A stretch of 64,000 bases of DNA from Comamonas antarctica (GTDB lineage Bacteria; Pseudomonadota; Gammaproteobacteria; Burkholderiales; Burkholderiaceae_C): assembly GCF_013363755.1 (NCBI RefSeq), contig NZ_CP054840.1, positions 944,001 to 1,008,000 of the forward strand, written 5' to 3'. Each line of letters starts with the position of its first letter. The first letter of the stretch is position 1. Shown piece after piece: positions 34,315-58,432 of the stretch. Made by a program: the position numbers and the translations under genes. The notes under the pieces were generated by a model. That model ran no database searches. It was not told the origin of the DNA and saw only the letters and a list, made by a program, of their open reading frames with translations.

Positions 34315-34356
34315 GGCGATGTCTCCTCTGTGGTGTGTTGTCTTCTTCAAGGCGCT

Positions 34357-35370
34357 TCAGGCGCTGCGCACGGTGGCCCGCTCGACGATGCGGCAGGGAA
34401 TCACCACGTTGCGCGGCTGGCTGCCGTCGCGCATCTGCTCGTGCAGCACGTCGACGGTGGCATCCACCATCTGCTCGACGCTCTGCACGACGGTGGTCAG
34501 CTGGTACGCGCCCCAGGCGGCCTGCGGCACGTCGTCGAAGCCGACCACGCCCACGTCCTGCGGCACGCGCAGCTGGAGTTCCTGGCGCAGCACATCCATG
34601 GCGGCAATGGCCATGTGGTCGTTGGCAACGAACAACGCGTCGGGCTTGTCCGCGCCGGAGAACAGCTCGCGCGTGGCTTCGCGCGCGCGCTCGAAGTCGT
34701 AGTGGCCCAGCGCGCGGCCCACCGCGGCCGTGCCGGCTTCGGCCAGCGCCTCGTTGAAGCCGCGCTCACGCTCGCGGTGCGTCGAGGAGTTCTCCAGCCC
34801 GCCCAGAAAGGCAATGCGCCGATAGCCACGCGCCAGCAGCAGCTCGGCCACCATGCGCCCGCCGCGGCGGTTGTCCGAGGTCACCGAACTGGTGCTGCTG
34901 CCGGCAAACGACGACATCTGCGGCACGCGGTTGAACATCACCACCGGCACGCCGGTGTCGGCGCACTGGCGCGCGAGGCCTGGCGACAGCATGGCCGACG
35001 CCATTACCACCGCATCGACCTGGTACTGCAGGATCTCGGCCAGCACGCCGTCGGTCGGCTCGCCGGCCTCGGTGATGAACATCAGCACGTGGTAGCCCTG
35101 GCGCTGCAGCTTCTGCGACAGCTCCTGGATCACCAGCGGATAGAACTGGTTCTCCAGATAGCCCATCACCAGCGCAATGATGTGGCTGCGCCGCGTGATC
35201 AGGCTGCGTGCCAGCGCGTTGGGGCGGTAGCCCAGCGCCTTGGCCGCGCTCAGCACCCGCGCGCGCGTGTCCTCCGACACGCTGGCGCCGGGCGTGAAGC
35301 TGCGGCTCACGGCCGACTGCGATACCTTGGCCAGTTCGGCGACGGCCTGCGCCGTGGCATTGGACTTCAT
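34357..35370 (-). CDS. LacI-family transcriptional regulator
   Basis: A 337-residue LacI/GalR-type regulator. The HTH and hinge lie at residues 1-60 (AVAELAKVSQSAVSRSFTPGASVSEDTRARVLSAAKALGYRPNALARSL), followed by a periplasmic-binding-protein-like effector domain (IIALVMGYLENQFYPLVIQELSQKLQ; VMFNRVP; DALFVANDHMAIAAMDVLR; VGVVGFDDVPQAAW). Its start overlaps the SDR stop (ATGA), so it is co-transcribed with the HisD-like and SDR genes. Two palindromes upstream of that operon (37501-37548) with a central CG or GG are the obvious operators, implying autoregulation. Confidence 0.93.
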   Translation of the reverse strand: MKSNATAQAVAELAKVSQSAVSRSFTPGASVSEDTRARVLSAAKALGYRPNALARSLITRRSHIIALVMGYLENQFYPLVIQELSQKLQRQGYHVLMFITEAGEPTDGVLAEILQYQVDAVVMASAMLSPGLARQCADTGVPVVMFNRVPQMSSFAGSSTSSVTSDNRRGGRMVAELLLARGYRRIAFLGGLENSSTHRERERGFNEALAEAGTAAVGRALGHYDFERAREATRELFSGADKPDALFVANDHMAIAAMDVLRQELQLRVPQDVGVVGFDDVPQAAWGAYQLTTVVQSVEQMVDATVDVLHEQMRDGSQPRNVVIPCRIVERATVRSA

Positions 35371-36134
35371 GCGGCGCTCCATCCGCCGTCTAGCATCAGC
35401 GCGCTGCCGGTCATCAGGCTGGAGGCATCGCTGGCCAGGAACACGACTGCGCCCATGATCTCCTCCAACTGGCCCAGCCGGCCCAGCGCGATGCGCTCGG
35501 TGACCCACGCGCGAAACGCCGGGTCGGCAAACATGCCCGCGGTCATGGAGGTCTCGACGAACGTGGGGCAGATCGTGTTGACGCGGATGCCCGCGCCGCC
35601 CAGCTCCCAGGCCAGCGCCTTGGTCATGCCTTCGACCGCATGCTTGCTGGCGCAGTACAGGGTGCGGCGCGGGCTGCCCACCACGCCCATCTGCGAGGAG
35701 ATTGTCACGATGGAGCCGGGCAGGCCCGCATCCAGCAGGCCGCGGCTGACGGTGCGTGTCACATAGAGCGTGGCCTTGACATTGAGATCGAACACCGCGT
35801 CGATGTCCTCGTCCTGCACCTCGACCAGCGGCCGCGGCCGGTTGAGCCCGGCGTTGTTGACCAGGATCTGGAACGGGCCGGCCGCCGTCAGCTGCCCGGT
35901 CACGGCCTGCGAGTCCGTGACATCGAGCACCAGATAGTCGGCTTGGCCGCCTTCGGCGCGTATGCGCTCGCAGGCCTGCTGCAGTTCGCCTTCCGAGCGC
36001 GCAGTGAGCGTCACCGAGGCCCCTGCCTGGGCCAGCGCGCAGGCCGCGGCCAGGCCGATGCCGCGGCCCGCGCCCGTCACCAGGGCCCGGCGGCCGTCGA
36101 CACGGAAGCTGGGAGTGGAAGGCAGCACGTTCAC
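35367..36134 (-). CDS. Short-chain dehydrogenase/reductase (SDR)
   Basis: A 255-residue classical SDR: cofactor loop [38 protein letters not shown], active site [10 protein letters not shown]...[21 protein letters not shown] (Ser, Tyr-x-x-x-Lys) and [17 protein letters not shown]. It ends with [16 protein letters not shown]. The start is the GTG at 36134 overlapping the HisD-like stop. It reads with the HisD-like gene and lacI as one unit; together the two dehydrogenases could oxidise adjacent hydroxyls of a polyol or sugar-like substrate. Confidence 0.9.
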
Positions 36135-37465
36135 CGCTCCAGCACCGTTTTGGCCGCCGGCACCGGCGCGTACCACGGCACCTCGGCGCGATCGCCATAG
36201 CGGCGCACGCGCAGGTTGGCCTGCTCGCCATGGCCGGCGAAATTCTCCATGTGGCACAGGCGCGAGCAGTACTCGCCCATGAGGGCGCTGGCCTCGTCGG
36301 TCAGCACGCGCTGGTAGGTGCAGGTCTTGAGGAACTTGCCGACCCACAGGCCGCCGGTGTAGCGCGCCGCGCGGTTGGTCGGCAGGGTGTGGTTGGTGCC
36401 GATCACCTTGTCGCCAAAGGCCACGTTGGTGCGCGCGCCCAGGAACAGGCCGCCGTAGTTGCTCAGGTGCTCGAGGAACCAGTCCGGGTCGCGGGTCAGC
36501 ACCTGCACGTGCTCGAAGGCCAGCTCGTCGGCTTTGCGCAGCATCTCCTCGCGCGTATCGCAGACGATCACCTCGCCATATTCGGCCCAGCTCACCGACG
36601 CGATGGCCGCCGTGGGAAGGATGGTCAGCTGGCGCTGGATCTCGGCCAGCGTGTCGTGCGCCAGCTGCTCGCTGGTGGTGAGCAGGATGGCGGGCGAGGT
36701 GGGGCCGTGCTCGGCCTGGCCCAGCAGGTCGACCGCGCACATCTCGGCATCGGCGCTGTCGTCGGCAATCACCAGGGTCTCGGTCGGACCCGCGAACAGG
36801 TCGATGCCCACGCGGCCGAACAGCTGGCGCTTGGCTTCGGCGACATACATGTTGCCCGGGCCCACCAGCATGTCGACCGGCGCGATGCTGGGCGTGCCCA
36901 CCGCCATCGCCACCACGGCCTGCACGCCGCCGAGCACCAGGATCTCGTCGGCGCCGGCCATGGCCATCGCCGTCACGATGGCCGGGTGCGGCGCGCCCTG
37001 GTAGGGCGGGGCGGTGGCAACGATGCGCTTCACGCCCGCCACCTTGGCCGTCAGCACGCTCATGTGGGCCGAAGCCAGCAGCGGGTACTTGCCGCCGGGG
37101 ATGTAGCAGCCCACGGCATTGACCGGGATGTGCCTGTGGCCCAGCACCACGCCGGGATAGGTTTCCACTTCCACATCGCGCATCGAGTCGCGCTGGATCT
37201 GCGCGAAGTTGCGCACCTGGGTCTGCGCAAACGCAATGTCTTCGATCTCGCGCGCCGACAGGCTCTTGCGCGCCTTCTCGATCTCGGCTGCCGAGAGGCG
37301 GAAGTCGGCCGGATCCCATTGGTCGAACTGGCGGCTGTACTCGCGCACCGCGGCATCGCCCCGGCTTTCCACGGCCTGGATGATGCCTTCGACGGTGCTG
37401 CGCACCTTGCTGTCGTCCTCGGCCCGGACCTCGATGTCCTTGCCGCGCTTGAGATATTTGATCAT
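36131..37465 (-). CDS. HisD-like alcohol dehydrogenase (histidinol dehydrogenase family)
   Basis: A 444-residue protein of the histidinol dehydrogenase family: [86 protein letters not shown] and [26 protein letters not shown], with the zinc and active-site positions broadly kept. Its context (SDR, LacI, Bug, aldolase) and absence of other his genes argue against a histidine role. One known relative is HpsN, sulfopropanediol dehydrogenase, but no sulfonate-lyase gene is seen, so the substrate is open. First gene of its operon, 36 bases downstream of a palindromic operator. Confidence 0.85.
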
Positions 37466-37500
37466 GGTGGGTGCCGTTCAAGAAAAATGGATTTGCCTAT

Positions 37501-37516
37501 TTGCATAGGTATGCAA
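37501..37516. promoter_or_regulatory. LacI-type operator, proximal copy
   Basis: TTGCATAGGTATGCAA is a palindrome except for its central GG. It lies 36-51 bases upstream of the HisD-like start and shares both half sites with the distal copy, so it probably binds the LacI-family protein encoded in the same operon. Confidence 0.75.
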
Positions 37517-37532
37517 GACCACTTTTGATGAA

Positions 37533-37548
37533 TTGCATACGTATGCAA
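37533..37548. promoter_or_regulatory. LacI-type operator, distal copy
   Basis: TTGCATACGTATGCAA is a perfect 16-bp palindrome with the central CG typical of LacI/GalR operators. Its centre is 32 bp from that of the proximal copy, about three helical turns, so two dimers would sit on one face of the DNA. Confidence 0.8.
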
Positions 37549-37658
37549 ACAGGGTTATCCCTAGTGAGGAGAGTTTTTTGCTCCTGCCTTGCCTTGATAC
37601 GAGAAAAACTCCCAGGATGATGAGGCTTGTAAGTTTTTGTTGCATGTATGCTCGGAGC

Positions 37659-38570
37659 ATGGCAATCCCAGACTATCAAACCTGCATGCTTCCGTTCCTG
37701 TCGCATTTGACGGACGGAAACGAACACTCGTTGCGAGAAACAGAAGAGGCGCTTGCTGAGAAATTTGGCCTCACACCGGCTGAAAGGGCAGAGCTACTGC
37801 CAAGTGGACAGCAAGGTATATTCAAAAATCGGATTGGCTGGGCCAGAACATACCTGAAGAAGGCTGGGCTGATTGAAGCTCCGAAGCGAGCTATTTTCAA
37901 AATTACAGCTCGTGGCCAGGATGTGCTGTCTTCCAAGCCCACGCGTATCGATTCGAAGTATTTGGAGCAGTGGCCCGAATTCATAGAGTTTCGTGACTTC
38001 TCAAAAGATGGTGCGGCGTCATCAAAGTTGCCACAGCCAGCGCAAACTTTCAGCACGCCTGAGGAAGCAATTGAGCAGGCATACCAAGGCTTGAGAGAGC
38101 AGCTTGCTCAGGAGCTGCTGGCCAAGATCCTGTCGTGTTCGCCGATTTTTTTTGAGCAGCTCGTTGTGGAGTTGCTGGTCAAGATGGGGTACGGCGGCTC
38201 ACGCAAAGATGCTGGAGAGCGAATCGGTCAGACGGGCGATGGCGGTATCGATGGAATCATCAAAGAAGATCGCCTTGGACTGGATGCGATTTTCATTCAG
38301 GCCAAGCGTTGGCAGGGTTCGGTAGGTAGGCCTGAAATCCAGAAGTTTGTCGGAGCGCTTCAAGGCCAGAGAGCCAGGAAAGGCGTCTTCATCACCACCT
38401 CTTTTTACACGGTGGATGCGACTGACTATGCGTCGCGGATCGACACCAAAGTGGTACTCATTGATGGCAAGCAGTTGGCCGCCTTGATGATGGACTTTGA
38501 TGTCGGTGTTGCGGCATCGGCAGCCTATGTGGTCAAGAGAATTGACTCGGATTATTTCGAAGATATGTGA
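37659..38570 (+). CDS. mrr: Mrr-family restriction endonuclease
   Basis: A 303-residue Mrr protein. The N-terminal winged-helix part (about 1-95: PFLSHLTDGNEHSLRETEEALAEKFGLT; RIGWARTYLKKAGLIE) is followed by the PD-(D/E)XK nuclease domain with SPIFFEQLVVELLVKMGYGG (E166), TGDGGIDGIIKEDRLG (D198) and IFIQAKRW (Q214, K216). Mrr is a type IV nuclease against methylated DNA. The ATG at 37659 gives the family N-terminus. A helicase gene follows after 31 bases on the same strand, forming a likely two-gene unit. GC is markedly lower than the catabolic genes beside it, and this is the first gene of the island. Confidence 0.9.
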   Translation: MAIPDYQTCMLPFLSHLTDGNEHSLRETEEALAEKFGLTPAERAELLPSGQQGIFKNRIGWARTYLKKAGLIEAPKRAIFKITARGQDVLSSKPTRIDSKYLEQWPEFIEFRDFSKDGAASSKLPQPAQTFSTPEEAIEQAYQGLREQLAQELLAKILSCSPIFFEQLVVELLVKMGYGGSRKDAGERIGQTGDGGIDGIIKEDRLGLDAIFIQAKRWQGSVGRPEIQKFVGALQGQRARKGVFITTSFYTVDATDYASRIDTKVVLIDGKQLAALMMDFDVGVAASAAYVVKRIDSDYFEDM

Positions 38571-41168
38571 TCTGGCAGTGGTGCACTGAATTCAACTAAA
38601 TATGAAAAAAGAGTGGAGTCCTTCGTGGTGGGGGCGAAGGCTGACGAAATCGTCTAATTGGTGCCTGCGGATGGATGGTTTGAAGCTCGCGATGACGTTG
38701 GCAGGCAGTGCACATCATGTCAACGTGGAAGAGGAAAACAGTTACTGGATAAACGCTGGCACGTTCTGGACAGACATCACGTTCCACCCAGGACAAGAGA
38801 ATGAGGTGAAAGCTGATGGGCTCCCTAATGATCAAGGTGCCACTCTCATCCAAGCATTGAACGCGGGCTTGAAAGAGAAGCGTCTGCGTGATGAGGCGAA
38901 ATTTCTTCAGCGGGAACATCAGAAAATTCAGCATTGGTTGGATCACAAGGCTGGTCAGGAGCGTAAATGTGCAAAAGACCGACGGTGGTTCACTCATGAA
39001 CAACAGCAAGAGGTGTTGGCTGCACGGCCCAATGTGAACGTTGCCGATCTTCGAAAACGACTCAGCAACTCTGATGTCGCGGCCCATCTGGGGACTATCA
39101 CGAATTTGGTGAAGGCGTCACTCGATGCTTTTCAGTTGGACCATGGCGCTGCCTGGACTTTGCTTAACGCAGTCCATATGAAGCGCGAGCTGATTGTCTG
39201 CAAAGAGTTGCTTGATCGGGTGGAAAGCAAGCCTTTGACCGAAGAACAGGCAAGGTCGGTGGTATGTTTTGACAATCGTGTGCAGGTCATCGCATCTGCC
39301 GGTTCAGGAAAGACATCCACGATGGTGGCCAAAGCCGCCTATGCGATCCACCGGGGGTTTGTGAAGCCCGAGCGCATTGTGATGCTGGCGTTCAACAGGC
39401 AAGCAGCCGAGGAACTCAAAGAACGTGCTGACAGAGCATTTGAACGTTTGGGTATGGCGAATGTAGCTGTCGAGGCTTCAACTTTTCATGCGCTGGGCCT
39501 GCGCATCATCGGCAAGGCAACCAAAGAAAAGCCCGATATTCCGAATTGGGCTACCGACGCAGCCGGCGGAGTTAGAAAGCTTGCCGAAATCGTCGATCAG
39601 TTGAAGGATAGCTCCCCAGCGTTTCGCCGGCAGTGGGATTTGTTTCGCTTTGTCTTTGGAAGAGATCTGCCGTCCTTTGGCGGCGCTGAACCAGCAGATG
39701 TCTGGGATTCCCGAGGTAAAGGCGCGCTGATTACGAGCCGTGGGGAGAAAGTTAAGAGCCTGGAAGAAGTGATGGTTGCGAATTATCTCTTCTTGAATGG
39801 GATAGATTACAAATACGAGACTCCCTATGCACATCGGACAGCTGACGAGGACCATCGTCAGTACCGGCCAGATTTCTATTATCCTGATCTCGACCTCTAC
39901 CATGAGCACTTCGCTCTTGATGCTGAAGGTGTTCCTCCAACGCACTTCAAGGATTATTTGCAGGGAGTGCACTGGAAGCGGAAGTTGCATGCGGAGAAAG
40001 GTACTGAACTGTTTGAGACCACCTCCTACGGCCTGCGAAGCGGCAAAGACTTCACCCGTTTAGAGAACGAGCTGATTGGTCGTGGTCTGGTGCCTGATCT
40101 CAATCCCGATCGCGAAATACCCAAGAACGGACAAAAGCCCATGGAGTCGATCGAGCTCATTGGGTTAGTGCGCACCTTCATGAGCCACGCGAAGAGCAAT
40201 AGTTTGAGGATTGATGCCTTGCGGAGTCGATTGGACGCAATGCCAAGGGATAGCTTCAAGCATCGGCATCAAATGTTCCTGGATATTGCTGCGCCCATCA
40301 TGGCTGCCTGGGACTCGGCGCTGGCTGCTGAGAACGGGATTGACTTCGAGGACATGCTCAACCAGGCTGCGGAGTACTTGGAGAGCGGCCGTGTTGAGTC
40401 CACCTACGATTTGGTGATGGCCGACGAATTCCAAGACGCATCGCGCGCCCGTGCCCGCTTGTGTCGTGCTCTGGTTGATCGGCCGGGCCGTTTCTTGTTT
40501 GCCGTGGGTGACGACTGGCAATCGATCAACCGTTTTGCTGGGGCAGACGTGTCAGTTATGACGGGCTTTCGGGAGTGGTTTGGTCATGGCCAAGTATTCA
40601 AGCTAGAACAGACCTTCCGCTGCCCACAAGCCTTGTGTGATGTTTCCAGCGCCTTCGTTTCCCAAAATCCGGGCCAGATTCCCAAGAACGTACGTTCAAT
40701 GACGCCAGCGCAAGGCCCTGTACTCCAAGCATTCCAGGTAGACCACAAGGAAAAGCTGGCTGACGCGATCGATCAATTCGTGCTGGGGCTCGCTGAGGGC
40801 ATGCGCGAAGGCTCGATTTCGCCGGGCAGGGACGGCAAAGTGTCTGTCTATATCCTTGGGCGCTACAACGCCGATAAGCAATACGTTCCATCAAACCCGC
40901 GCCGTTTTAACCAATGGATCGAAGTGTCGTTTCTCACCATCCATCGGTCGAAAGGCAGCGAGGCTGACTACGTCATCTTGCCGGAAATGCTCAGCGTCCT
41001 GAAGGGACGCAGCTTCCCCAACACCCGTGCCGACGATCCCGTTCTCGCCTTGGCAATGCCGGATGGCGACAGCTTTCCATTGTGTCAGCGCCGATGTAAA
41101 ACTAACCCACTGCGCCGAGGTAAATCTGACCCACCTGGGTGATCATGGCAGCCTTTGTGAGGCTGCTG

Positions 41169-42961
<1,793 letters not shown>

Positions 42962-43388
42962 CCGGCGCAGGGCTGTTCGATCACCAGGCTAAGAAAACGC
43001 CGGCGAACAACCCAAAACGAAGGACCCAGGTGGGTCAGATTTACTTCGGCGATTTAGTGAAAAGTGGGTCAGATTTACATCGGCGTTGACACCATTGGGA
43101 GAGGAGCGTCGCCTGTTCTATGTAGCTTTGACCAGGGCGCGCCGCATGGTGGCGATGTTCACTGTTCGTGGTCGATGTTCTACCTTCCTTCGGGAACTCA
43201 CAGACGGCGGCGGGGTGGCAATCACCGATACTGACGGTAAGTCAATACAAGAGCAGACCTGCCCCGGCTGCAAGCAAGGAGTACTGTTGCTGCGAACGGG
43301 CCCTTATGGTGAGTTTCGCTCATGCTCCAATTACCCTCTGTGCAGCTATAAGCCACCGAAACAAGGCGAAGTTCAACGACGGAGATGA

Positions 43389-43738: not shown

Positions 43739-44935
43739 ATGCCTAAGATTGCTAAAGAACTTTCTGCTTTACAAGTTAGTAGACTCCTCGATGAGGGACA
43801 TCATGCCGTAGGTGGCGTCACGGGGCTTTACCTTTATGTCACTTCAACTGGTGCTCGTTCATGGGTCTTAAGAATCGGGGTAGGGAAAAAGAGAAGGCAC
43901 ATGGGACTGGGGGGATTCCCATCAGTCACTTTAGCAATGGCTCGTGAGCAAGCTCGTACGGCAAGAAGCGAATTTAGAGCCGGGTTGGATCCTATCGCTG
44001 CCCGTCATAAGGCCGTGAGCAAGCTCTTGGCAGAACAACTCAACGCTGTCACGTTTGAGAGTGCGGCGAAGGCTTACATCGATGCCCATGGTGACACCTG
44101 GAAGAATCCTAAACATAGAGCACAGTGGTCAGCAACCCTTGCTACGTATGCATTTCCAGTAATTGGAAACTTGCAAACTGCGCATGTAACCCAGGCGCAT
44201 GTTCTTGCTGTTCTGGAACCTATCTGGAAGACTAAAAACGAAACGGCCGCACGCCTGCGCGGACGGATTGAAGCAGTACTAGATTGGGCTACCGTTCGAG
44301 GGTATCGTGAGGGTGAAAATCCAGCCAGATGGAAAGGGCGCTTAGATAAGTTGCTGCCAGCTCCCGCAAAAATTCAAAAAACGGTACATCGGAAGGCTTT
44401 GCCCATTGATGCTGTCCCACAGTTCATGCGTGATCTGCGGGATAAAGAGGGCGTTACAGCTAGAGCCTTGGAGTTCGTTGTTCTTACTGCCGCACGCAGT
44501 GGGGAGGTCCGAGGGGCAACGTGGGGTGAAATCGATTTGGACGCAGCGGTGTGGGTGGTTCCTGGTGACCGGATGAAAGCAGGGCGTGAACATCGTGTGC
44601 CGCTATGTACACAAGCAGTTGAACTGCTTAAAAAAATGCCACGATTTGTTGGTAATGAGCATGTTTTTCCATCGCCACGTGGCAAGGCATTGTCTGATAT
44701 GGCGCTCTTGACTGTTATGCGGCGTATGGAGGTGGATGCGGTCCCACATGGTTTTCGCTCAACTTTTAGAGACTGGGTTGGAGAGCGTACAGACTATCCA
44801 AGAGAGCTTGCTGAACAAGCTCTTGCACACACGCTAGAGAACAAAGTTGAAGCAGCTTATCGGCGCGGGGATGCGTTGGAGAAGCGTAGAACAATGATGC
44901 AGGAGTGGAGCGATTTCTTGTATGACACAAAGTAA
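43739..44935 (+). CDS. P4-type tyrosine integrase
   Basis: A 398-residue site-specific recombinase. The N-terminal arm-binding domain (DUF4102 type) reads LSALQVSRLLDEGHHAVGGVTGLYLYVTSTGARSW…MGLGGFPSVTLAMAREQA; the core-binding domain follows to about 210. Catalytic residues are seen as R253 (LTAARSGEVRG), H337 and R340 (PHGFRSTF), H363 (ALAHTLEN) and nucleophile Y374 (EAAYRRGD). It is the likely enzyme that inserted part of the island. The next gene overlaps it by 14 bases. Start chosen at the first ATG, which gives a normal P4-type N-terminus. Confidence 0.95.
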   Translation: MPKIAKELSALQVSRLLDEGHHAVGGVTGLYLYVTSTGARSWVLRIGVGKKRRHMGLGGFPSVTLAMAREQARTARSEFRAGLDPIAARHKAVSKLLAEQLNAVTFESAAKAYIDAHGDTWKNPKHRAQWSATLATYAFPVIGNLQTAHVTQAHVLAVLEPIWKTKNETAARLRGRIEAVLDWATVRGYREGENPARWKGRLDKLLPAPAKIQKTVHRKALPIDAVPQFMRDLRDKEGVTARALEFVVLTAARSGEVRGATWGEIDLDAAVWVVPGDRMKAGREHRVPLCTQAVELLKKMPRFVGNEHVFPSPRGKALSDMALLTVMRRMEVDAVPHGFRSTFRDWVGERTDYPRELAEQALAHTLENKVEAAYRRGDALEKRRTMMQEWSDFLYDTK

Positions 44936-46040: not shown

Positions 46041-46399
46041 TTTTAAGCTCTTCTTTTTTGAGATTAAAAAATTCTTTTTTTAGTGAAAATTCTTCTTTTT
46101 TTCTGAAAAGTTAAGTATCTTTTTTAGGAAATTCGTGTGCTTTACTGAGACTTTTATCGAATCCTCCGGCTAAGGAGTTGAGTCATGGGTAGACGTTAAA
46201 GAAGTGGTCTGACGGTGAGAGGGGCTTTCATAGCGGGGGCGCTATAGACCCACAGGCCGCACAGGTGGATAGGTGTTTTTTTACCCGCTGACAGATGTTT
46301 TGAGCCGAACCGCTTCGGACGCTTCGAAACGGTTTCGTTGGCTCATTTCACAGCATTGCTCCCAGCTTGCACTGGGGCATACATACAGCGAGTCCTACG
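46041..46399. other. Intergenic region ahead of alpA with a long imperfect inverted repeat
   Basis: The first 80 bases are T-rich runs (TTCTTTTTT-type) after the unknown gene and could terminate transcription. Further on an inverted repeat runs from GAGCC (46302-46306) to GGCTC (46340-46344) enclosing ACCG/CGGT and CGAAAC-G-GTTTCG. No gene is evident; the structure could be a control element of the satellite-like module. Confidence 0.4.
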
Positions 46400-46618
46400 A
46401 TGTCTACTGCAGCCACTACCCCTCTGAAGCTCTTGCGTGCAACCCAAGTTTGCAATAAGCTAAATATTTCGAAAACTACCTTGTACGCCAAACTAGATAA
46501 AAGCTCTAAATACTACGATCCACATTTTCCACGGCAAATAATTATCGGGGCCAACTCGGTGGCTTGGATAGAGCACCAGGTTGATAGCTGGATATCAAGT
46601 AAACTATCTGCTGTATGA
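46400..46618 (+). CDS. AlpA-like small helix-turn-helix regulator
   Basis: A 72-residue DNA-binding protein with the AlpA/MerR-like pattern: LLRATQVCNKLNISKTTLYAKLDKSSKYYDPHFPRQIIIGANSVAWIEHQVDSWISSKL. The 'lR..qV...l.iSkttly' opening and 'FP..i.iG...vaW...evd.Wi' close are diagnostic. In P4-like elements AlpA activates the integrase or excision genes. Its place between integrase and the replication gene fits that role. Start chosen at the ATG giving this length; upstream in-frame codons look non-coding. Confidence 0.88.
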   Translation: MSTAATTPLKLLRATQVCNKLNISKTTLYAKLDKSSKYYDPHFPRQIIIGANSVAWIEHQVDSWISSKLSAV

Positions 46619-47106: not shown

Positions 47107-48081
47107 ATGCGCTTTAACAAGGACTTCTCTCAGCAGTATATCGAATCTGATGTAGACCATGCAGTGCTGGCTGCATGGGTTTGCCAGCTCAACAAAAAGA
47201 TGAAGGATATCCGGAAAGATTTGGAAGAGTACCTAGATGAAGAAAACTTCGATAGGGATTCATTTGACCAAGGTCTTGAGCAAGATCTCAATGCCTTGGT
47301 TCAGAACTGTCCCGTAGATGACCCCTTCAGCTTAGGCCAAGGTCCTAACTCTAACCCATATCTAAAGTGTTTCATTGCCAGCCTTGAGCAAGAGGTCGTG
47401 TACCAGAATGTTGATCACTTCCAGCAGGTGCAAGCAAGTCTGTTACTCCAACGTGTTCGGGATGGTCTAGAGAGTAAGGACTTCGGTGATGAGCTGGACA
47501 ACCTTAAGCGCAATGAGCGTGCAACCAGCAAGTCACTGCTTCAGTACATCCTAGACCTGAAGGCGGCCTATTCCAAGCTGATGATCATTCGCTTAGACCT
47601 CTACACAGAGGATAGCGAAGGAGCTCCACGAAGCTGGGAGCGTTTGAAGAAGTATGTGGAAGACCGCTATATGAGCTCTTACGTGGGCTATGCGGTGAAG
47701 TTTGAATACGGGGAGAAAAGAGGGGTGCACATGCACACCCTGCTGTTTTTTAACGGCTCTGTCGTACGCAAGGACGTAACGATGGCCAAGGCCATAGGAG
47801 AGTACTGGAATGCTTCTGTGACCAATGGCAAGGGCGCCTATAGCAACTGCAACACTCCAGAGCACCTAAGGAACATGAGCTATCCAGCAGTAGGTACCTT
47901 TCACCAGTTTGATGAACGTACTCGCAAAGGGCTAGAGTGCATCGCTAAGTACCTCACCGAACAAGATCTCGCGGTGCGATTTGCCGTGCCAGGGCTGTCA
48001 CGTACCCTGCGCAAAGGCACTATCAGGCAAGAGCAGCGCTCTCGTATTGAAAAGAGGAGGCGTATGAGTGAAAAGGCCTAG
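47107..48081 (+). CDS. Inovirus Gp2/YagK-YfjJ-like putative replication protein (HUH motif)
   Basis: A 324-residue protein. The C-terminal half has the pattern of the YagK/YfjJ (inovirus Gp2) family: KLMIIRLDLYT (158-168), SYVGYAVKFEYGEKRGVHMHTLLFFNG with an H-x-H pair (H208, H210) as in HUH rolling-circle initiators, and GLECIAKYLTEQDLAVRF near the end, where a tyrosine could act. The N-terminal 150 residues are acidic and helical. It likely starts replication of, or mobilises, the element carrying the integrase and AlpA. This is an inference; no nick site was identified. Confidence 0.7.
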   Translation: MRFNKDFSQQYIESDVDHAVLAAWVCQLNKKMKDIRKDLEEYLDEENFDRDSFDQGLEQDLNALVQNCPVDDPFSLGQGPNSNPYLKCFIASLEQEVVYQNVDHFQQVQASLLLQRVRDGLESKDFGDELDNLKRNERATSKSLLQYILDLKAAYSKLMIIRLDLYTEDSEGAPRSWERLKKYVEDRYMSSYVGYAVKFEYGEKRGVHMHTLLFFNGSVVRKDVTMAKAIGEYWNASVTNGKGAYSNCNTPEHLRNMSYPAVGTFHQFDERTRKGLECIAKYLTEQDLAVRFAVPGLSRTLRKGTIRQEQRSRIEKRRRMSEKA

Positions 48082-48207: not shown

Positions 48208-49701
48208 ATGTCCCTGCCTCATTTCTGTGTACAGCAAGATGTGACAAAATACGAACATTTGAACAAGCTATATAAAATCTCGCTCGATCCGGCGGGGAAA
48301 GACGAGACCGAAGTGATTGGAACTAGTAGCGAGGCCTTCCGTTTCGTCGATCTCTTTGCTGGGCTGGGAGGCTTCCACGTCGCTCTCGATGAGTTGGGTG
48401 GACGTGGCGTGTTCGCTGCTGAGTGGGAGCCCAAGCTGAACGCCCTCTATAAGGTCAACTTCGGTATCGACGCTTGGGGTGACCTTAACGCCCTCAGCAA
48501 CGACGAGATCATTGCCCGAAGTGTGCCCGATCACCACGTCCTTACCGCTGGTTTTCCGTGCCAACCGTTCTCCAAAGCAGGAGATCAACTGGGCTTCAAG
48601 GACTCCAATCAAGGGAATCTCTTCTTCAAGGTTCACGAGATCTTAAGCGTCAAGCGGCCACAATACTTCATTCTGGAGAATGTGCCCAATATCCTCAAGC
48701 ACGACGGCGGCCGCACCAAGGCCACGATCATCCGCATGCTGGAAGAGCTTGGCTACTCCGTCGACGTCGAGCACTTCTCGCCCCACGAGTTCGGGATTCC
48801 CCAAGTGCGGGACCGCGCCTACTTCGTAGGTTCGCTCGAGGGGCTCGATCACTTCGAGTGGCCGACGAAGCACAAGGGTCAAACCGAAATTCGTAGTGTG
48901 TTGCGTCACGACGTACCTTCCACTCGCGCTATACCGGAACAGACGCTCCGAGCCATCGACATGTGGGGAGACTTCCTACGCCACTCTCCGGCCGAGTTGA
49001 AGCTGCCCTCCTTCCCGATCTGGGCGATGGAATTCGGGGCAACCTATCCCTACGAGGAAGAAACTCCTTCAGGGGTTTGGGCTCGCAGGCCGTTGTTGGG
49101 TATGCGAGAGATGGGCTTTAAGGGCAACTTTGGACAATCTCTCGAATGCTCTGTTGACGAACAAATCAAGAGAATACCTAGCCATGCCAACCGTGCTGGC
49201 GATTTCGATTTCCCACAGTGGAAGCGGACTTTCATCAGGCAGAACCGTGAGTTCTACCAAGCCAACCGTTCCTGGATTGATCCCTGGCTTGCAAAGTGGC
49301 GCCCTCAAGACTTTTCCTCTAGCTTCCAGAAGATGGAGTGGAACGCGCAGGGTGAAGGGCGCGACATCGACAACTTCGTGCTGCAAGTTCGTGCATCTGG
49401 ACTGCGGGTCAAGCGCCCCACGACCTCCCCAAGTCTCATAGCCTTCACGCAGACCCAAGTTCCCATTCTCGGTGCTAACTTGACAGGCAAACGTCGCTAC
49501 ATGACCCCAGCCGAGTGTGCCGAGCTGCAGTGTCTCGGCGGCATCCAGTTGCCCGCGTCCGACCTCGACGCGTATAAGGCCCTGGGCAACGCAGTCAACG
49601 CCCGCGTCGTCAAAGCGATCGCCGAACGATTGTTGTACGGGCTCATCCGGCCCACATCAAGCATCACCCCTGACCTTGAACCATTGGGAGCTACCGCGTG
49701 A
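48208..49701 (+). CDS. DNA (cytosine-5-)-methyltransferase
   Basis: A 497-residue C5-cytosine methyltransferase with all key motifs: I FRFVDLFAGLGGFHVAL (44-60), IV TAGFPCQPFSKAGDQLGF with catalytic C118, VI FILENVPN (155-161), VIII near FGIPQVRDRAYFVG, IX in the TSPSLIAFTQ…RYMTPAECAELQC stretch, and X ALGNAVNARVVKAIAERLL at the end. It modifies a DNA target that cannot be predicted from the variable region. The frame is open to a TTG at 48169, but the ATG at 48208 suits better. Its stop overlaps the next start (GTGA), making it gene 1 of a four-gene coupled operon. Confidence 0.93.
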   Translation: MSLPHFCVQQDVTKYEHLNKLYKISLDPAGKDETEVIGTSSEAFRFVDLFAGLGGFHVALDELGGRGVFAAEWEPKLNALYKVNFGIDAWGDLNALSNDEIIARSVPDHHVLTAGFPCQPFSKAGDQLGFKDSNQGNLFFKVHEILSVKRPQYFILENVPNILKHDGGRTKATIIRMLEELGYSVDVEHFSPHEFGIPQVRDRAYFVGSLEGLDHFEWPTKHKGQTEIRSVLRHDVPSTRAIPEQTLRAIDMWGDFLRHSPAELKLPSFPIWAMEFGATYPYEEETPSGVWARRPLLGMREMGFKGNFGQSLECSVDEQIKRIPSHANRAGDFDFPQWKRTFIRQNREFYQANRSWIDPWLAKWRPQDFSSSFQKMEWNAQGEGRDIDNFVLQVRASGLRVKRPTTSPSLIAFTQTQVPILGANLTGKRRYMTPAECAELQCLGGIQLPASDLDAYKALGNAVNARVVKAIAERLLYGLIRPTSSITPDLEPLGATA

Positions 49702-51632
49702 CTAACCATAACGAACACGAAGACGACTTCGACGAAGAGGATCCGCGGTTCCAATTGTTGGAGAGCCTTGCCGACGGGTTGGCGACCCTCTCGGAGGCCT
49801 CAGACACGCCCAACGGCGTTTCCCCAGTGTCTTCGATGTTCAGCAGCGTCGACGTCGACTTCGCCTCCGGCGCATGGACGAACCAACTGGCTGAGATTCA
49901 AGGCTGGCTAAACCTCAGCGATGACCTCCCGCTAACGGGCGGCGAACCCTTCCTTCAGGCGCTCATCGCTGAACTCGAACTCGATCCCACCGACCTCCTC
50001 CCCCTCGGGGCTGCCTCCCCGCCGCTCTCCATCCGCGCGCTGGAGCGTCTGAGAGAGCGCGTGGACATCGCCTGCCGGCTGCAGGCCGACTTCCTCGAAG
50101 AGCTTGAGACCAAGGGCACTAGCCGTGCGACGGCCACTCAATCCTGGGCTGACGCGTGGGCCGAGTTCGACGCGCGTGAAGATGCGGTGAGCCCGGAACC
50201 GGTCACGGCAAAGGCCGCAGTCTGGCCGATCTTCCAACTCACCAAGAAGCCGCCGAACCTAACGCCGTCCTACCAGCGGGGCGACGTCTGGCGCAGCGGT
50301 GACCGGCAGTCCCTGATGGAGTCCATCCTCCGGGGCGTCCCGTTGCCCTCCATCATCCTACTGCGCACCGGATCGTCCACCCCGCACGAAGTCGTTGATG
50401 GCAAGCAGCGGCTCACGGCCATCCTCCGGTTTGTAGGAAAGCATCCTGTCGCCAAACAGAAAGTTACTGAGGTCGCCGCCCGGCACAGGGGGAAGATGTT
50501 CAACGAACAAGGACGTCTCGACGAGAAAGGCGACAGGAATCTGGCGGATCTGTTCAACGACGACTATCCAGCCTTCCGTCGTGCGTGGAAAGCGCTTGAG
50601 GGTTACGCACTCAAGGCCACGGATGAGGACGACTATTACTTCCCGTTTAAGCTTCGCACGACTGGAGATGGCGGGCTGGTCGGTCCCTACCTTGAGCCTC
50701 TCCGCGGTAAGTACTACACGCAGATTAAGGGCCGTGAGATTAACGTCGCTGGCCAACAAACCACCATCGAAGGTCTGTTCGATGACGTTGGGGATTACGG
50801 CATTCCCGTCATCGAGTACACCCAGGCCACCCAGGCTCAGATTCATGAGGTCTTTCGCCTTTACAACAAGCAGGGTGTGCACCTGAACGCTGAAGAGATC
50901 CGCAACGCGGTCTACCACGAGGTCGAACTCACCCGTGCGACTCTCGCTGCCGCCGGCGACGCCGACCCGAACAACGATGTCGCCAAAATTGCCAAGTCGT
51001 TAGCAGGGGTCCCGAATCTTGCCCGCATCGGCGAGGCGCTGACGAGCTACCAGTTCGGCGACACGCGCTACAAGCGCACGAAGGTTCTGTTATGGGTTAT
51101 CTCGGTCTTGGTGTATGACACCGCTGGAAAGGATCTGGGTTCGACCAGCCGTAACATCGACCAATTACTGATCGAGATTCAAAAGTACCCGTCCCACCCG
51201 CTTGCCCAGTCCTCAACTTTGACCAAACTGTTCGAGTTGCTGTCGGACGCCGTCGAACTCCACTCATCGCACAATGAGTTGTGGTCCGAGAAATTCATGG
51301 ACGGTGGCAAAGGTGCAAAGTGGCAGGAACTCCAGCTTGTGGGTTCTCTCGTAGGCATCTCCATGGCCTTGGCGGCCTCGCCGCAAGACATCGTGGACCG
51401 CATCGAGGCGAAGGGTGATGCTATCCGCGTGGCCAGCGAAGAGTCCGCGGACTGGGAACGCCCCAGTAAGACGCAGACCAAGACCCAGTGGGACTACATC
51501 GCCAGAATCAGCAAAAGTCTCCTCGAACTATTGGACATCGACCCTGATCAAGCAGCTGAGGCAGTACGTCTGAAGTTCGGGTCCTCTGGGTACGCGTCGT
51601 TGCAGCGGATGCTCATCAAACCGAAGAGTTGA
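49698..51632 (+). CDS. DUF262-domain protein (GmrSD/ParB-like NTPase domain)
   Basis: A 644-residue protein. The first 180 residues are acidic and helical. The DUF262 domain follows: LTPSYQRGDVWRSGDRQSLMESILRGVPLPSIILL (near 189-223) and the signature VVDGKQRLTAILRFV (about 232-246), then FRLYNKQGVHLNAEEIRNAVYHEV. In GmrSD-type nucleases this domain binds and hydrolyses nucleotides; the HNH-type DUF1524 half of those proteins is not seen here. The start (GTG) overlaps the methyltransferase and the stop overlaps the Z1 gene, so it works in the same system. Confidence 0.85.
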   Translation: MTNHNEHEDDFDEEDPRFQLLESLADGLATLSEASDTPNGVSPVSSMFSSVDVDFASGAWTNQLAEIQGWLNLSDDLPLTGGEPFLQALIAELELDPTDLLPLGAASPPLSIRALERLRERVDIACRLQADFLEELETKGTSRATATQSWADAWAEFDAREDAVSPEPVTAKAAVWPIFQLTKKPPNLTPSYQRGDVWRSGDRQSLMESILRGVPLPSIILLRTGSSTPHEVVDGKQRLTAILRFVGKHPVAKQKVTEVAARHRGKMFNEQGRLDEKGDRNLADLFNDDYPAFRRAWKALEGYALKATDEDDYYFPFKLRTTGDGGLVGPYLEPLRGKYYTQIKGREINVAGQQTTIEGLFDDVGDYGIPVIEYTQATQAQIHEVFRLYNKQGVHLNAEEIRNAVYHEVELTRATLAAAGDADPNNDVAKIAKSLAGVPNLARIGEALTSYQFGDTRYKRTKVLLWVISVLVYDTAGKDLGSTSRNIDQLLIEIQKYPSHPLAQSSTLTKLFELLSDAVELHSSHNELWSEKFMDGGKGAKWQELQLVGSLVGISMALAASPQDIVDRIEAKGDAIRVASEESADWERPSKTQTKTQWDYIARISKSLLELLDIDPDQAAEAVRLKFGSSGYASLQRMLIKPKS

Positions 51633-54451
51633 GAGCGGTGCCAGGAAGTTCCCCACTCGTCGAGCACGTCTACTTCAATCCGCCAGCGCCCCAGGAGGCG
51701 GACTCGTGGTGGGCCCGCTACAAGGCTCAACTCACCGGCTTGACCGATACAGCGCGTGCCTCAGTTGAGGCAGACTCCCGCTACATTCTCCAGCGCGGAA
51801 TCATGTCAGCCGACACCGCGAAACCCGAAGATTGGTCATCCCGCCGCTCGCGTACGGGACTTGTAATGGGTTCGGTCCAGTCAGGCAAGACCGCTTCTAT
51901 GCTGGGTGTCTCAGCCCTGGCCATCGACAACGGCATAGACATCATCGTCGTACTCGCCGGGACCCGTCTCTCCTTGTGGCGCCAGACCTATGAGAGGCTG
52001 GTGCAGCAGTTGGACTCGGGAGAGGAGAGCGCACAGAAGATTAAACGCCGCCTACTGTGCCCACCACCGGGCATTGCACTTTCAGAGCAGGCGCATCCAC
52101 TGCAAGCCACCTACCGGCTGCCGCCGGCTCAGGTTAGACAACGGTTGAGTCAGGGCAGGCCACTGATCATTGTGGCGATGAAGCAGACTGACCATCTGCA
52201 TGCCTTGGCAGCAAGCCTCCGCGCCAACGTCTTTAGCGCGGTCAAGGAGCTTGATCGCTCCGTCCAAATGCTCGTGCTTGACGACGAGGCCGACGATGGA
52301 TCTATTCTCGATGCCATAGTTGAGTCTTCGCAGGACCCCATTTACGGCAGATTGAAGCAGATCCCGCGTGCGATCGCTAACCTCTGGGATCCGCCTCAGG
52401 GGGCGCCTGAAAATCTTTTCTCGACTTACATCGCCTACACGGCGACACCCCAGGCCAACCTCCTTCAGGAGGACCACAACCCCCTAGCGCCGCGAGACTT
52501 CCTGATCTCTCTTCGCACGCCGCTCGATGTCGGCCATCCAGTAGACACAAGCGATCCTGGCAACCTCAACGCCCCCCGCTCATCGACCTACCCAGAGGCT
52601 GTGGGGATCCGTTCCTACTACACCGGCGGTGAGGTCTTCTACCGCCGCGCAGAGGCAGCCAAACTGTGCGTGCCCACCACCAACTCTGTGCAGCAAGATC
52701 TTGCCGACGCCGTCCGAGCTTTCTTGGTGGCGGGCGCCATCCGCCTGCACCGTTCTGGCAGGCTTGGCCCGGTATCCGCAATCACTGCCCAGTTCGACGC
52801 CGAGCACGAAGCCCTTGTCTGCGTGGTTCCTCCTCACTCGATGCTCTACCACCCCTCAGCCGCGATCACGGATCACTTCAGGGGCGCTGAGGACATCTTG
52901 CTCTGGGCAGGGATCCAGGACCGGGCGACGGCGCGAAATTTGCTCGACGCAGGTGACGCCAGGCTCCCAAACACCTTGGCGGATGACCTGCAGGCGGATC
53001 CTGCCCCATGGGCGCAATGGCTCGACAAGTACCGTGCCTCCGCCAGAGCAATCGAGGACGAGTTCGATGTCCTGCCACCGACGGTTTTCCCGGACTGGCA
53101 GACCATCGAAACCCTGCTCATCGACGAGGTGATCCCGGGGACAAGGGTCGCCGTGGTCAATAGCGACCCCAACGCTGATGACCGTCCTGCCTACGCGCCG
53201 AGCCAGGACCCGAAAACCTGTAAGTGGAGCGCCGCCCGCGACATCAGCACGATCTTCGTCTCAGGTAACGTAATGGCCCGTGGACTGACGCTGGAAGGGA
53301 TGACCACGGCGTTGTTCCAGCGTTCATCTGCCAACCCCCTGGCCGACACCCAGATGCAGATGCAGCGCTGGTTCGGCTACCGCGGGTCATATATTGAGTT
53401 GTGCCGCGTCTTCGCTTCCAGCGACCAACTCTCCCTCTTCCGTGCTTATCACGATGTTGACGAAGCGGTTCGCACAGCCATCACCGAGCGCATGATGAGC
53501 GGCGCTCCTGAACCTACCGTCCTGCAAGGACTCAATTTCGAGGCCACAGGCAAGATCGCGGGCGTGGGAAACCTTCCCCTATCACCAGGGGCTCGTCCCT
53601 TCGTTACAGTCATCAATGGCAGTTGGCAGGCGGATCCCAATGCAGACATAGTGGCTGGACTCTTCGCCCGCCCCTCCAGCGACCTCGCTGTCGCTGATGT
53701 GCTGCGGGGCCGGATCCTAGACGATCCACTCGAACTTACCGAGGCCGCCGAACTCTTGGATCGCCTCACTTTCGCCGACTACCAGCCGGGAAGCAAGGGG
53801 TTCCACGCGGACTTCTGGAGCGGTATCGAAGCCCGAGCAAACGCAGTTGCCCCGCTGCGGGATTCACCTTTCTATCGCCCGCCGGGGAAGCTTGATAAGG
53901 GAGACCAGCCACGGCGTGCCTGCCCCTATTCCATCGCCGCCTACCTTCGACTATGGTCGGCCTGCCTCACTCGGCCGATCACGGGCCTTTTTGTCACCGG
54001 CCACCCCGGCGCTCTATGGTCCTATGCCGACCTCAAGCGCAAGAATGCTGAGCGACCTCGGTTCTGGATCGGCATTCGTTACGGAGATGGTGCCACCGTG
54101 TCCAATGGTCCACTGGCACTGCTCCCATTTAACATACGCGCCACCACCAAGATGGTGATCGGAGGCGAACTCAAGACGACTTGGGGAGCGAGCGACCCTA
54201 ACGCCGGCCCGGACCAGTATCGCGGTGACGTCTACTTCGATTACTACCATCACCGCGCTGCCGTGCCATCGAACAGCAGCATGGCGTGGCGACCCAGCGG
54301 CTCCGACGGTCAAATCCTCTTCTACGTCAATCAACATCCGGGCGACAAGCACCCCACGATCGCAGTCGGAGTCTGCCTCCCTGCAGGAGGTCCGGAGCAG
54401 TTCTCAGCCACCCGTGCTGGGGCAACCATCGTTACGAAGGGACTCCCATGA
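51629..54451 (+). CDS. Z1-domain ATPase/helicase-like protein
   Basis: A 940-residue P-loop protein. Walker A is GSVQSGKT (81-88) in TGLVMGSVQSGKTASMLGVSALAIDNGIDIIVVLAGT; a DEAD-like Walker B LVLDDEADDGS lies near 215-225; YIAYTATPQANLL (near 275) is a helicase-type motif III; FVSGNVMARGLTLEGMTTALFQRSS and QMQMQRWFGYRGSY (near 570-584) match motifs V-VI and are typical of the Z1 family. Z1 proteins occur in predicted restriction-type systems with methyltransferases and MORC ATPases. The start is TTG at 51629 overlapping the upstream stop, or GTG at 51638. It overlaps the next gene (ATGA). Confidence 0.88.
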   Translation: MRAVPGSSPLVEHVYFNPPAPQEADSWWARYKAQLTGLTDTARASVEADSRYILQRGIMSADTAKPEDWSSRRSRTGLVMGSVQSGKTASMLGVSALAIDNGIDIIVVLAGTRLSLWRQTYERLVQQLDSGEESAQKIKRRLLCPPPGIALSEQAHPLQATYRLPPAQVRQRLSQGRPLIIVAMKQTDHLHALAASLRANVFSAVKELDRSVQMLVLDDEADDGSILDAIVESSQDPIYGRLKQIPRAIANLWDPPQGAPENLFSTYIAYTATPQANLLQEDHNPLAPRDFLISLRTPLDVGHPVDTSDPGNLNAPRSSTYPEAVGIRSYYTGGEVFYRRAEAAKLCVPTTNSVQQDLADAVRAFLVAGAIRLHRSGRLGPVSAITAQFDAEHEALVCVVPPHSMLYHPSAAITDHFRGAEDILLWAGIQDRATARNLLDAGDARLPNTLADDLQADPAPWAQWLDKYRASARAIEDEFDVLPPTVFPDWQTIETLLIDEVIPGTRVAVVNSDPNADDRPAYAPSQDPKTCKWSAARDISTIFVSGNVMARGLTLEGMTTALFQRSSANPLADTQMQMQRWFGYRGSYIELCRVFASSDQLSLFRAYHDVDEAVRTAITERMMSGAPEPTVLQGLNFEATGKIAGVGNLPLSPGARPFVTVINGSWQADPNADIVAGLFARPSSDLAVADVLRGRILDDPLELTEAAELLDRLTFADYQPGSKGFHADFWSGIEARANAVAPLRDSPFYRPPGKLDKGDQPRRACPYSIAAYLRLWSACLTRPITGLFVTGHPGALWSYADLKRKNAERPRFWIGIRYGDGATVSNGPLALLPFNIRATTKMVIGGELKTTWGASDPNAGPDQYRGDVYFDYYHHRAAVPSNSSMAWRPSGSDGQILFYVNQHPGDKHPTIAVGVCLPAGGPEQFSATRAGATIVTKGLP

Positions 54452-55509
54452 TCAGCTACGAAGCAGTTCTAAACCAGATCAACGTCGTTCCGGCAGGCAC
54501 CACTGGAGATAACCGAGCCATTACCTGGTTGACCGATGCAAAGGTGGTTGGGATCGCTCGGAATAGTCGCGGTCACTTGGAGCTGTTCCTTTCAGGCGAC
54601 GAGTTGAGGCCTCGGACCGGCGTAGTGAAGTCTGCAATGCACTACCACTCCTGGCACCGTGACAGCCTGCCTCCGCTGAACGCAAACCGCATTTGCTTGC
54701 CCGCGCTGGGGCATTTCGACCAGGTCGGTGCATTCATTGCCGCTGAACTGCTGCGGGAAAAAGCTGACGCAAATTTGGAGCGCGCCTTTGCCGTCACCGA
54801 GCCGCTGATTGAACTCGCCATTAAGCGCCTGGAGATCTCTGAGAACGCCATCCTCGGACTCGTCGGGGAACTGCTCCTTCTCGACGCTCTCTGCCGCCGC
54901 GCGGCCGATCCCCAGGTCGGATCAGTCGTCCTGGCTTGGGATGGCTGGCGCCGCTCTGCAAGGGACTTCAGATGGGAGGGCACGGGTGTAGAGATAAAGA
55001 CCACTACTCGCGCAACCTCAAGTCACGCCATTCATGGCGTCCACCAAATCGAGCCTATCCCTGCCAGTGATGATGCCCCCGGGGAGTCGCGCCTGCTCCT
55101 CGTAAGCGTCGGCCTGCAACAGACAGATCCCAACGTGCCTGCCTTGTCGATCCCATCCCTGGTGGAGAGCATCGTCGCGCGACTCACCTCGAGCGGAGCT
55201 AGCGGTTTAGTCGACGAGCTTCTTAAACGCGTAGCCATGTACGGCTCGGAGTCGGGTATCGGATACGAGCATGCCACGATGGCCAACGAGGCGCCGTTCA
55301 CAACCCCGTTTAGCGTGACTTTCGTCCGGAGCTACGATATGGCAGACCCTGCAATCGAGGTGCTGCGGCGCGATGACGTGGTCGCCCACCAGCATGTGGA
55401 TGCCCAGTCGCTTACCTTCCGCGTCGAACTTCCCGCGACGATCAGCTTGAACAACCCCATCGCAGGTGCCCGACGCGTCGCTGAGGCAATCCTGGGCCTG
55501 CACAGTTAA
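54448..55509 (+). CDS. PD-(D/E)XK-motif protein (DUF4420-like), putative endonuclease
   Basis: A 353-residue protein whose middle has the nuclease fold signature: LGLVGELLLLDALCRR (E141), then WDGWRRSARDFRWEGTGVEIKTTTR with D173, E182 and K184 as the D…ExK site. The N-terminal part (FLSGDELRPRTGVVKSAMHYHSWHRD) and the later YDMADPAIEVLRRDDV…VELPATISL segment fit the DUF4420 (PD-(D/E)XK motif) family often found after Z1 genes. It is the likely cutting subunit of the four-gene system. Start at ATG 54448 overlaps the Z1 stop. Confidence 0.85.
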   Translation: MISYEAVLNQINVVPAGTTGDNRAITWLTDAKVVGIARNSRGHLELFLSGDELRPRTGVVKSAMHYHSWHRDSLPPLNANRICLPALGHFDQVGAFIAAELLREKADANLERAFAVTEPLIELAIKRLEISENAILGLVGELLLLDALCRRAADPQVGSVVLAWDGWRRSARDFRWEGTGVEIKTTTRATSSHAIHGVHQIEPIPASDDAPGESRLLLVSVGLQQTDPNVPALSIPSLVESIVARLTSSGASGLVDELLKRVAMYGSESGIGYEHATMANEAPFTTPFSVTFVRSYDMADPAIEVLRRDDVVAHQHVDAQSLTFRVELPATISLNNPIAGARRVAEAILGLHS

Positions 55510-55856: not shown

Positions 55857-56966
55857 GTGGATAAGAAGAGAAGTTTGATAGAGAGGGAAGAGAGTAAGGT
55901 CGGATTAAAAGTTCAGCTTTTCAAGCCTGAGCAGAGCACAAACGCAGCGGTGATTGCTCCCTTGATGTCTAAGGTGCAGTCTGGAAGTATTTCCTTGGAG
56001 GTTACTCGTCACCTTGACGATGGCCAGCTCAGGCTGTGCATTGCCATGCACACGTACATGGGGCTCCTTTTAAAGGTCGCGGGACCGCATTTCGAGTGGG
56101 ATGCTGCTAGGCAGTGTGCGCAGAGTTCGGCGCTTGGCGCTAGATTGTTACTGTGCGCAGACCTCTTGGATGAGTACCTAGGGTCTCGAATTCCTCTGGG
56201 TTGGAATGATGGTGATGTTCACCTTCATAGTGCTTATGTCACATTGTTTCGTGCAACAGTCGCTGTTGCTGCTGACCAGGTTCGCGGCAAGCAAGGGCTG
56301 AACTATGTGGACTGTCGCAGGTTAAAGCAAGAAGACATCGATTTGCTCAATAGGGGTGTGAGTGTTGCGTTGCGTTGGATGGCGAAGTCGCAGTCATGTG
56401 GCCTGAACAGACGCTTGTCCGTCGAGAAGACGAAGACCGAGCGCTCCATCGAGAAGTACGTCCAAACGCTGGAATCCAAACTGCCCAATGCAGTGACAGT
56501 CTTGGTGAAGATGAAGGTGCACGAAGGAGGTGGGTCCACAGAACTTAAAGCTTCATCACTGGATCAGTGCAGTGCGCTTTCGTACGTGGATTTTTTCAAA
56601 AATGCGTCTTCATACATTACGCAGTTCCAGAAGGTGTGGCCTGAAGCGTTGCTAGGAAAACTAGCAAGGGTTACGCAATCGGAGGAAGCTCGCCCGCAGT
56701 GCGTGATGCTATTTTTCCTTCCACAGGCATCGGGGCCAGCTAGTTGGAAAACACTACTGCAAGCATTTAATGTTGATTTCAACAATAAGCGTATGAGCAA
56801 AGGCGTTGCGCCAGTGCGGCTTGATGTGGCTGATTTGACCGAAGCGCTGAGGAAACAGCCAGGCTCTCCCACACAAGCTATTTATAAGCTGGTAGACGAC
56901 TTGTTTGTCAAAGAGCTACGTTATAGGCGTCTCAATTTGCCCAAGGGGCGTCGCTCCTGGTCCTAG
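55857..56966 (+). CDS. Unknown 369-aa protein
   Basis: Not recognised. The GTG start gives VDKKRSLIEREESKVGLKVQL. The protein is soluble and mostly helical, with DEYLGSRIPLGWNDGDVHLHSAYVTLFRATVAVAADQVRGKQGL, RLSVEKTKTERSIEKYVQTLESKLPNAVTVLVKMKV and a basic tail (YRRLNLPKGRRSW). The VTVLVKMKV…QCVMLFFLPQ arrangement distantly recalls the strands of Gp2-like replication proteins, but no H-x-H pair is present. It sits between the Z1 operon and a nucleotidyltransferase fragment in an island of mobile genes. Confidence 0.6.
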   Translation: MDKKRSLIEREESKVGLKVQLFKPEQSTNAAVIAPLMSKVQSGSISLEVTRHLDDGQLRLCIAMHTYMGLLLKVAGPHFEWDAARQCAQSSALGARLLLCADLLDEYLGSRIPLGWNDGDVHLHSAYVTLFRATVAVAADQVRGKQGLNYVDCRRLKQEDIDLLNRGVSVALRWMAKSQSCGLNRRLSVEKTKTERSIEKYVQTLESKLPNAVTVLVKMKVHEGGGSTELKASSLDQCSALSYVDFFKNASSYITQFQKVWPEALLGKLARVTQSEEARPQCVMLFFLPQASGPASWKTLLQAFNVDFNNKRMSKGVAPVRLDVADLTEALRKQPGSPTQAIYKLVDDLFVKELRYRRLNLPKGRRSWS

Positions 56967-56985
56967 GTGGATCGGGCTGATGTAG

Positions 56986-57185: not shown

Positions 57186-58148
57186 CTAGTTTGTTGAAGT
57201 GCAGGCGTCAGCCTGCACGGTCTTGGCAACTTGCCGCCAGTAGTTTGCCTCAGCCTCCGCTGGCGGTATATGTCCTATGGATTCCAGCAATCTGCCGTGG
57301 TTGAACCAGTGCACCCATTGCAGTGTTGCCAGCTCCAGTGATTCCCGTGTTTTCCACGGCCCTCGCTTGTAGATGACCTCCGTTTTGTAAAGCCCGTTGA
57401 TGGTTTCGGCCAGAGCGTTGTCGTAGGAATCTCCAGTGCTACCCACCGAAGGCATCAGGCCAGCTTCCTCCAAACGTTCTGTGTAGCGAATGGAAACGTA
57501 CTGACTGCCCCTGTCGGAGTGATGAATGAGCTCCGTGTCACTTGAAGGCCGCCTTGCATACAGCGCCTGCTCCAAAGCATCCACCACAAAGTCCGTGCGC
57601 ATGTGGCTACTAACCCGCCAGCCCACTATGCGGCGGGCATACACATCAATCACAAAGGCCACAAACATCTGCCCTTGCCACGTTGATACATAGGTGAAGT
57701 CTGCGACCCAAAGTTGGTCAGGGCGCTGAGCTGTGAACTGGCGGTTGACGAGGTCTAGCGGGCATGGCCTTGCTGCATCTGGACGTGTTGTGCGCACCTT
57801 CTTGCCACGCCTTGCGCCTTTCAGGCCCAGCTTGCGCATCAGTCGTTGTACGGTGCAGCGGGCAATGGGTAAGCCCTCTCGGTGCATCTGCTTCCAGACT
57901 TTGACCGTCCCATAAACCTGCCAGTTGGCATGCCACACACGTTGAATATGGGTGCAGCGTTCTTCGTCCGATTGACTGCGCTTACAGCGCAGCCACGGGC
58001 AGTTTCTTTGCTGAACCCTGCGCCTGTAGCCCGATGGGGCAATTTGCAGCAGCCTACAAATTGGCTCGACCCCATAGGCATCGCGATACTGGTCTACAAA
58101 GTCAATTAGCTCTTGATGCGACGGTCCAGCTCCGCCTGCGCAAAAAAA
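57186..58148 (-). CDS. IS3-family transposase OrfB, made as OrfAB by -1 frameshift
   Basis: A DDE-type integrase-core transposase. The catalytic residues lie in [27 protein letters not shown] and [16 protein letters not shown]. The frame is open upstream (…[34 protein letters not shown]) back to the T7 run at 58142-58148, where zero-frame GCT TTT TTT can slip back by one base, fusing OrfA to OrfB. The first ATG in the frame is only at 57938, past the N-terminal region, which supports expression by frameshifting. Confidence 0.9.
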
Positions 58149-58432
58149 GCGCTCGCAGCCTTGAGGATGTCATTGGCTCGGCGCAGCTCCTTGTTCTCTC
58201 GCTCAAGTTGCTTGAGTCGCTCACGTTCATCCGTGGTCAACCCTGGCCGTTGGCCTGCATCTATTTCTTTGCGCTGCACCCATCCATGCAGGGTGCTAAC
58301 AGAGCAGCCAATCTTGGGGGCTATCGACTCACATGCACCCCACAGTGATGCGTAATCCGCTTGGCATTCCTGCACCAAACGTACGGCACGTTCACGTACC
58401 TCGGGGCTAAAACGAGCAGCTTTAGTGTTCAT
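58106..58432 (-). CDS. IS3-family transposase OrfA
   Basis: A 108-residue HTH protein: [48 protein letters not shown] followed by a leucine-zipper-like [35 protein letters not shown]. It binds the element's ends. The slippery T7 is in the codons for SAFFA near its end. Confidence 0.93.

Follow-up and report, generated by a model that had tools for sequence, protein, structure and literature searches.

A conserved four-gene cassette of Comamonas antarctica, probably a restriction-modification system with a DUF262 protein in the place of MORC-type and AIPR proteins

Genes of the cassette and their recurrence

The 64,000-nucleotide stretch of the Comamonas antarctica contig NZ_CP054840.1 from 944,001 to 1,008,000 (hereafter the window, with positions counted from its first letter) carries a cassette of four genes on one strand, which we describe here. 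The first-pass annotation, made from the sequence alone, had read them as a cytosine-C5 methyltransferase, a DUF262 protein without the HNH half of GmrSD, a Z1 P-loop ATPase and a DUF4420-like nuclease with an intact D…ExK, and profile searches bore out all four families (PF00145, PF03235, PF10593 and PF14390). The C5 methyltransferase (48208..49701, +, 497 amino acids) matched PF00145 with 201.6 bits and TIGR00675 with 204.4 bits, scanned as the frame from TTG 48169, and the best of its solved relatives are M.HhaI chains (9.7e-42). It possesses the motifs PCQ, ENV and QxRxR; PCQ and ENV are invariant in 67/67 aligned rows, and the first Q of QxRxR is kept in 64/67. The Z1 ATPase gene (51638..54451, +), whose start was picked by comparison with homologues, matched PF10593 with 95.6 bits over residues 358–621 of a 940-residue frame. 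Its motifs GKT, DDE, TAT and QxQRxFGxR are invariant in all 69 rows, and the alignment of homologues marks a site inside the gene at 51869..51892 (+). The DUF4420 PD-(D/E)XK nuclease (54448..55509, +, 353 amino acids, PF14390) consists of an N-terminal part (residues ~1–116) and a nuclease domain (~130–341) with the ExK catalytic motif at 54991..54999 (+), whose residues E182 and K184, along with E141 and D173, are invariant in 68/68 rows.

The DUF262 protein (49698..51632, +, 644 amino acids, PF03235 78.9 bits) has a helical N-terminal region (residues 15–163), a ParB/Srx-type DUF262 domain (~165–396) and a helical C-terminal region (~410–644). Its DGKQR motif (residues 234–238, 50397..50411, +) is the counterpart of the DGQQR nucleotide-pocket motif, with D, G, Q and R invariant in 68/68 rows and K in 67, while the DUF1524 HNH nuclease domain found no match in any of the 68 members. 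The predicted model of the protein is closest to BrxU, with SspE in the third row, and PADLOC-DB 2.0.0 returned only partial matches, the best being NsnA at 70.6 bits. Within the C-terminal region, Q593, Q597 and W598 of the stretch 593–598 (51474–51491) are invariant in 68/68 rows. The DUF262 proteins of the actinobacterial loci L035–L040 and L042–L044 are ~740–820 residues long with script-chosen starts, against 600–650 in many others, and MTaX1 (methylase-associated X1) matched one of the 68 members scanned.

A genome search for co-occurrence of the families, as proposed earlier, found the gene set again across several bacterial phyla, and among 75 related loci the order was identical in all 70 that have all three core genes. 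The C5 methyltransferase is present at 71 of the 75, so that methyltransferase and nuclease genes are linked, as is general for restriction-modification systems. The cassette is probably such a system. The variant layout noted at first is confirmed and its first interpretation supported in part; an attack on modified DNA and a self-sensing scheme are rival explanations, weighed below.

Relation to known systems

The absence of MORC and AIPR genes, with DUF262 in their place, had been noted at first reading and held up in the scans, as neither type was found among 26 window proteins. Among the closest systems is MZA (mzaABCDE), whose NCBIfam equivalog cut-offs lie far above the scores obtained here (MzaC, 121.7 bits versus 1500; MzaD, 25.3 versus 420). 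MZA has GHKL/MutL-type ATPase and AIPR genes where the present cassette has DUF262. No GHKL/MutL-type ATPase was found among the 26 window proteins; around the 75 related loci there were two weak matches, beside the methyltransferase of L063 and beside a second methyltransferase at L027, against 13 of 20 loci with the type in a phylum sample, partly by construction of the profile. AIPR genes numbered zero around the 75 loci and were likewise seen at 13 of the 20 sample loci, again partly by construction.

A related known system comprises Types I and II: Type II has AIPR and is associated with MORC, and Type I has six genes, three extra ones of which go unnamed in the available portion of the descriptive text, where DUF262 is likewise absent. 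The third type of MORC operon (Iyer, Abhiman and Aravind 2008, PMC2292703, in its accessible sections) has a MORC/paraMORC GHKL ATPase, which was found neither in the window protein scans nor around the related loci, the cassette having DUF262 instead; sections 4 and 5 of that paper do not mention DUF262. CglI/NgoAVII, as described in the available parts of PMC4267653 and PMC5737866, differs in its nuclease, which combines the PLD fold and a B3 DNA-binding domain where the present one is DUF4420 PD-(D/E)XK, and the present cassette adds a fourth, DUF262 protein. RE_NgoFVII had no match among the window proteins scanned, in which the nuclease is PF14390; L092 is an example of a CglI/NgoAVII-type member. 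The DUF262-DUF1524 enzymes GmrSD, BrxU and SspE, together with Menshen, Dazbog and PD-T4-2 (excerpts of PMC4619093 and PMC10952713), share DUF262 and the DG(Q/K)QR motif, and the model is nearest to BrxU and SspE; the cassette differs from the GmrSD-family type IV enzymes in lacking the HNH domain. We conclude that the DUF262 protein occupies the place of the MORC-type and AIPR proteins of related systems.

Host methylation and alternative explanations

At 25 of the 75 loci (e.g. L020, L038, L043 and L064), 22 of them in Actinomycetota, the core has a Vsr-like gene no more than 6.5 kb away, and all three tested belong to PF03852; L002 and the closest kin of the window (L003–L014 and L026) yielded none. 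Because Vsr repairs T:G mismatches arising from deaminated 5-methylcytosine (5mC), the host DNA is likely methylated at the loci that bear it. In the methyltransferase recognition region, the ten system members listed scored 0.57 (window), 0.30–0.48 (eight) and 0.23 (L062), against 0.09–0.17 in 12 of 15 other C5 methyltransferases and 0.21–0.32 in three. The comparison is biased, as it covers only these ten members, the alignment was made from members of the system before the 15 were added, and two of the 15 are themselves second enzymes of system loci. The conservation of this region suggests that the enzyme may have a single fixed target.

We also searched the core for a sequence-reading subunit, comparing pairwise identities of the methyltransferase and the core proteins over 66 rows, made up of the window and 65 loci. 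The rows dropped were a near copy of the window (L002), broken frames (L033, L069), a truncation (L045), loci cut by contig ends (L005, L014, L053) and loci without one or two genes (L019, L032, L056). Methyltransferase exchange does occur, as between L054 and L076 (methyltransferase identity 50%, core 73–81%), but no block clearly tracked it: the largest partial correlation was 0.29, and the largest same-group effect, in DUF262 residues 241–280, was 0.07 identity against a spread of 0.027. The missing block says little, since the recognition region appears conserved, perhaps for one target only.

Such a pattern would also suit a mark reader, with DUF262 bound to the 5mC of the host itself, in the manner of SspE on phosphorothioate, and the nuclease active in the cell once the mark is lost or foreign DNA encounters the primed complex. 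A phosphorothioate mark triggers the DUF262 activity of SspE (accessible parts of PMC10952713 and PMC9646914), and the rank of SspE for the predicted model points the same way; however, the missing block is a weak negative and the CglI precedent works without such a sensor, and we regard this self-sensing, or abortive-infection, explanation as doubtful. A type IV-like attack on 5mC or otherwise modified DNA is unlikely. The type IV enzymes GmrSD and BrxU have DUF262 as their NTPase, and in Dazbog it is thought to permit recognition of methylated DNA (both from the available text of PMC10952713), in keeping with the BrxU-like model; but the widespread methyltransferase with its conserved recognition region and the Vsr-like genes point to methylated host DNA, so that a system of this kind would cut its own host, and the HNH domain of GmrSD and BrxU was not found in any of the 68 members. 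That the genes are accidental neighbours within a degrading island is close to inconceivable, being refuted by the constant order in 70/70 loci and the intact catalytic residues.

The mobile island and significance of the cassette

The probable restriction-modification system is carried by an island with a tyrosine integrase (43739..44935, +; PF00589, PF13356, PF22022) and an AlpA-type regulator (46367..46618, +; PF05930). A replication-protein-like gene upstream (47107..48081, +; REP_ORF2-G2P and YagK_YfjJ, both just below the Pfam cut-off) and island cargo directly downstream without a Pfam match (55857..56966, +) have a relative at only one of the 75 loci (L002) and were therefore excluded from the system. 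The island segment has probably moved, since SWCO2 differs from the window left of 43561; in SWCO2 its right junction, with another insertion sequence (IS) near 56970, resembles an IS insertion that has a short AGGTGGAT duplication. The right side of the island in the window holds IS3-type transposase parts on the − strand (57186–57938, with a helix-turn-helix part at 58106–58432). Elsewhere in the window, an Mrr restriction endonuclease gene (37533–38570; Mrr_N, Mrr_cat) is preceded on the same strand by genes for 792 (33388–35766) and 432 amino acids (36230–37528) without Pfam matches, and the three are possibly another defence operon. A UvrD/helicase IV-like gene (38602–41142 and 43086–43388) appears interrupted by an IS21-type insertion that comprises an rve transposase (41139–42179) and IstB (42176–42961); a UvrD_C end and a zinc ribbon follow beyond it.

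MORC ATPases have an importance that ranges from bacteria to animal and plant gene silencing, yet little is understood of what they do in bacterial restriction. The cassette points to a defence set of four conserved genes, of which the DUF262 protein finds only partial matches in PADLOC-DB, and it brings DUF262, so far familiar mainly through SspE and the type IV enzymes, into a restriction-modification scheme driven by a motor. As a natural branch in which the motor–nuclease pair uses DUF262 for MORC and AIPR, it allows a direct comparison, in which the function that both modules supply would be the missing one.
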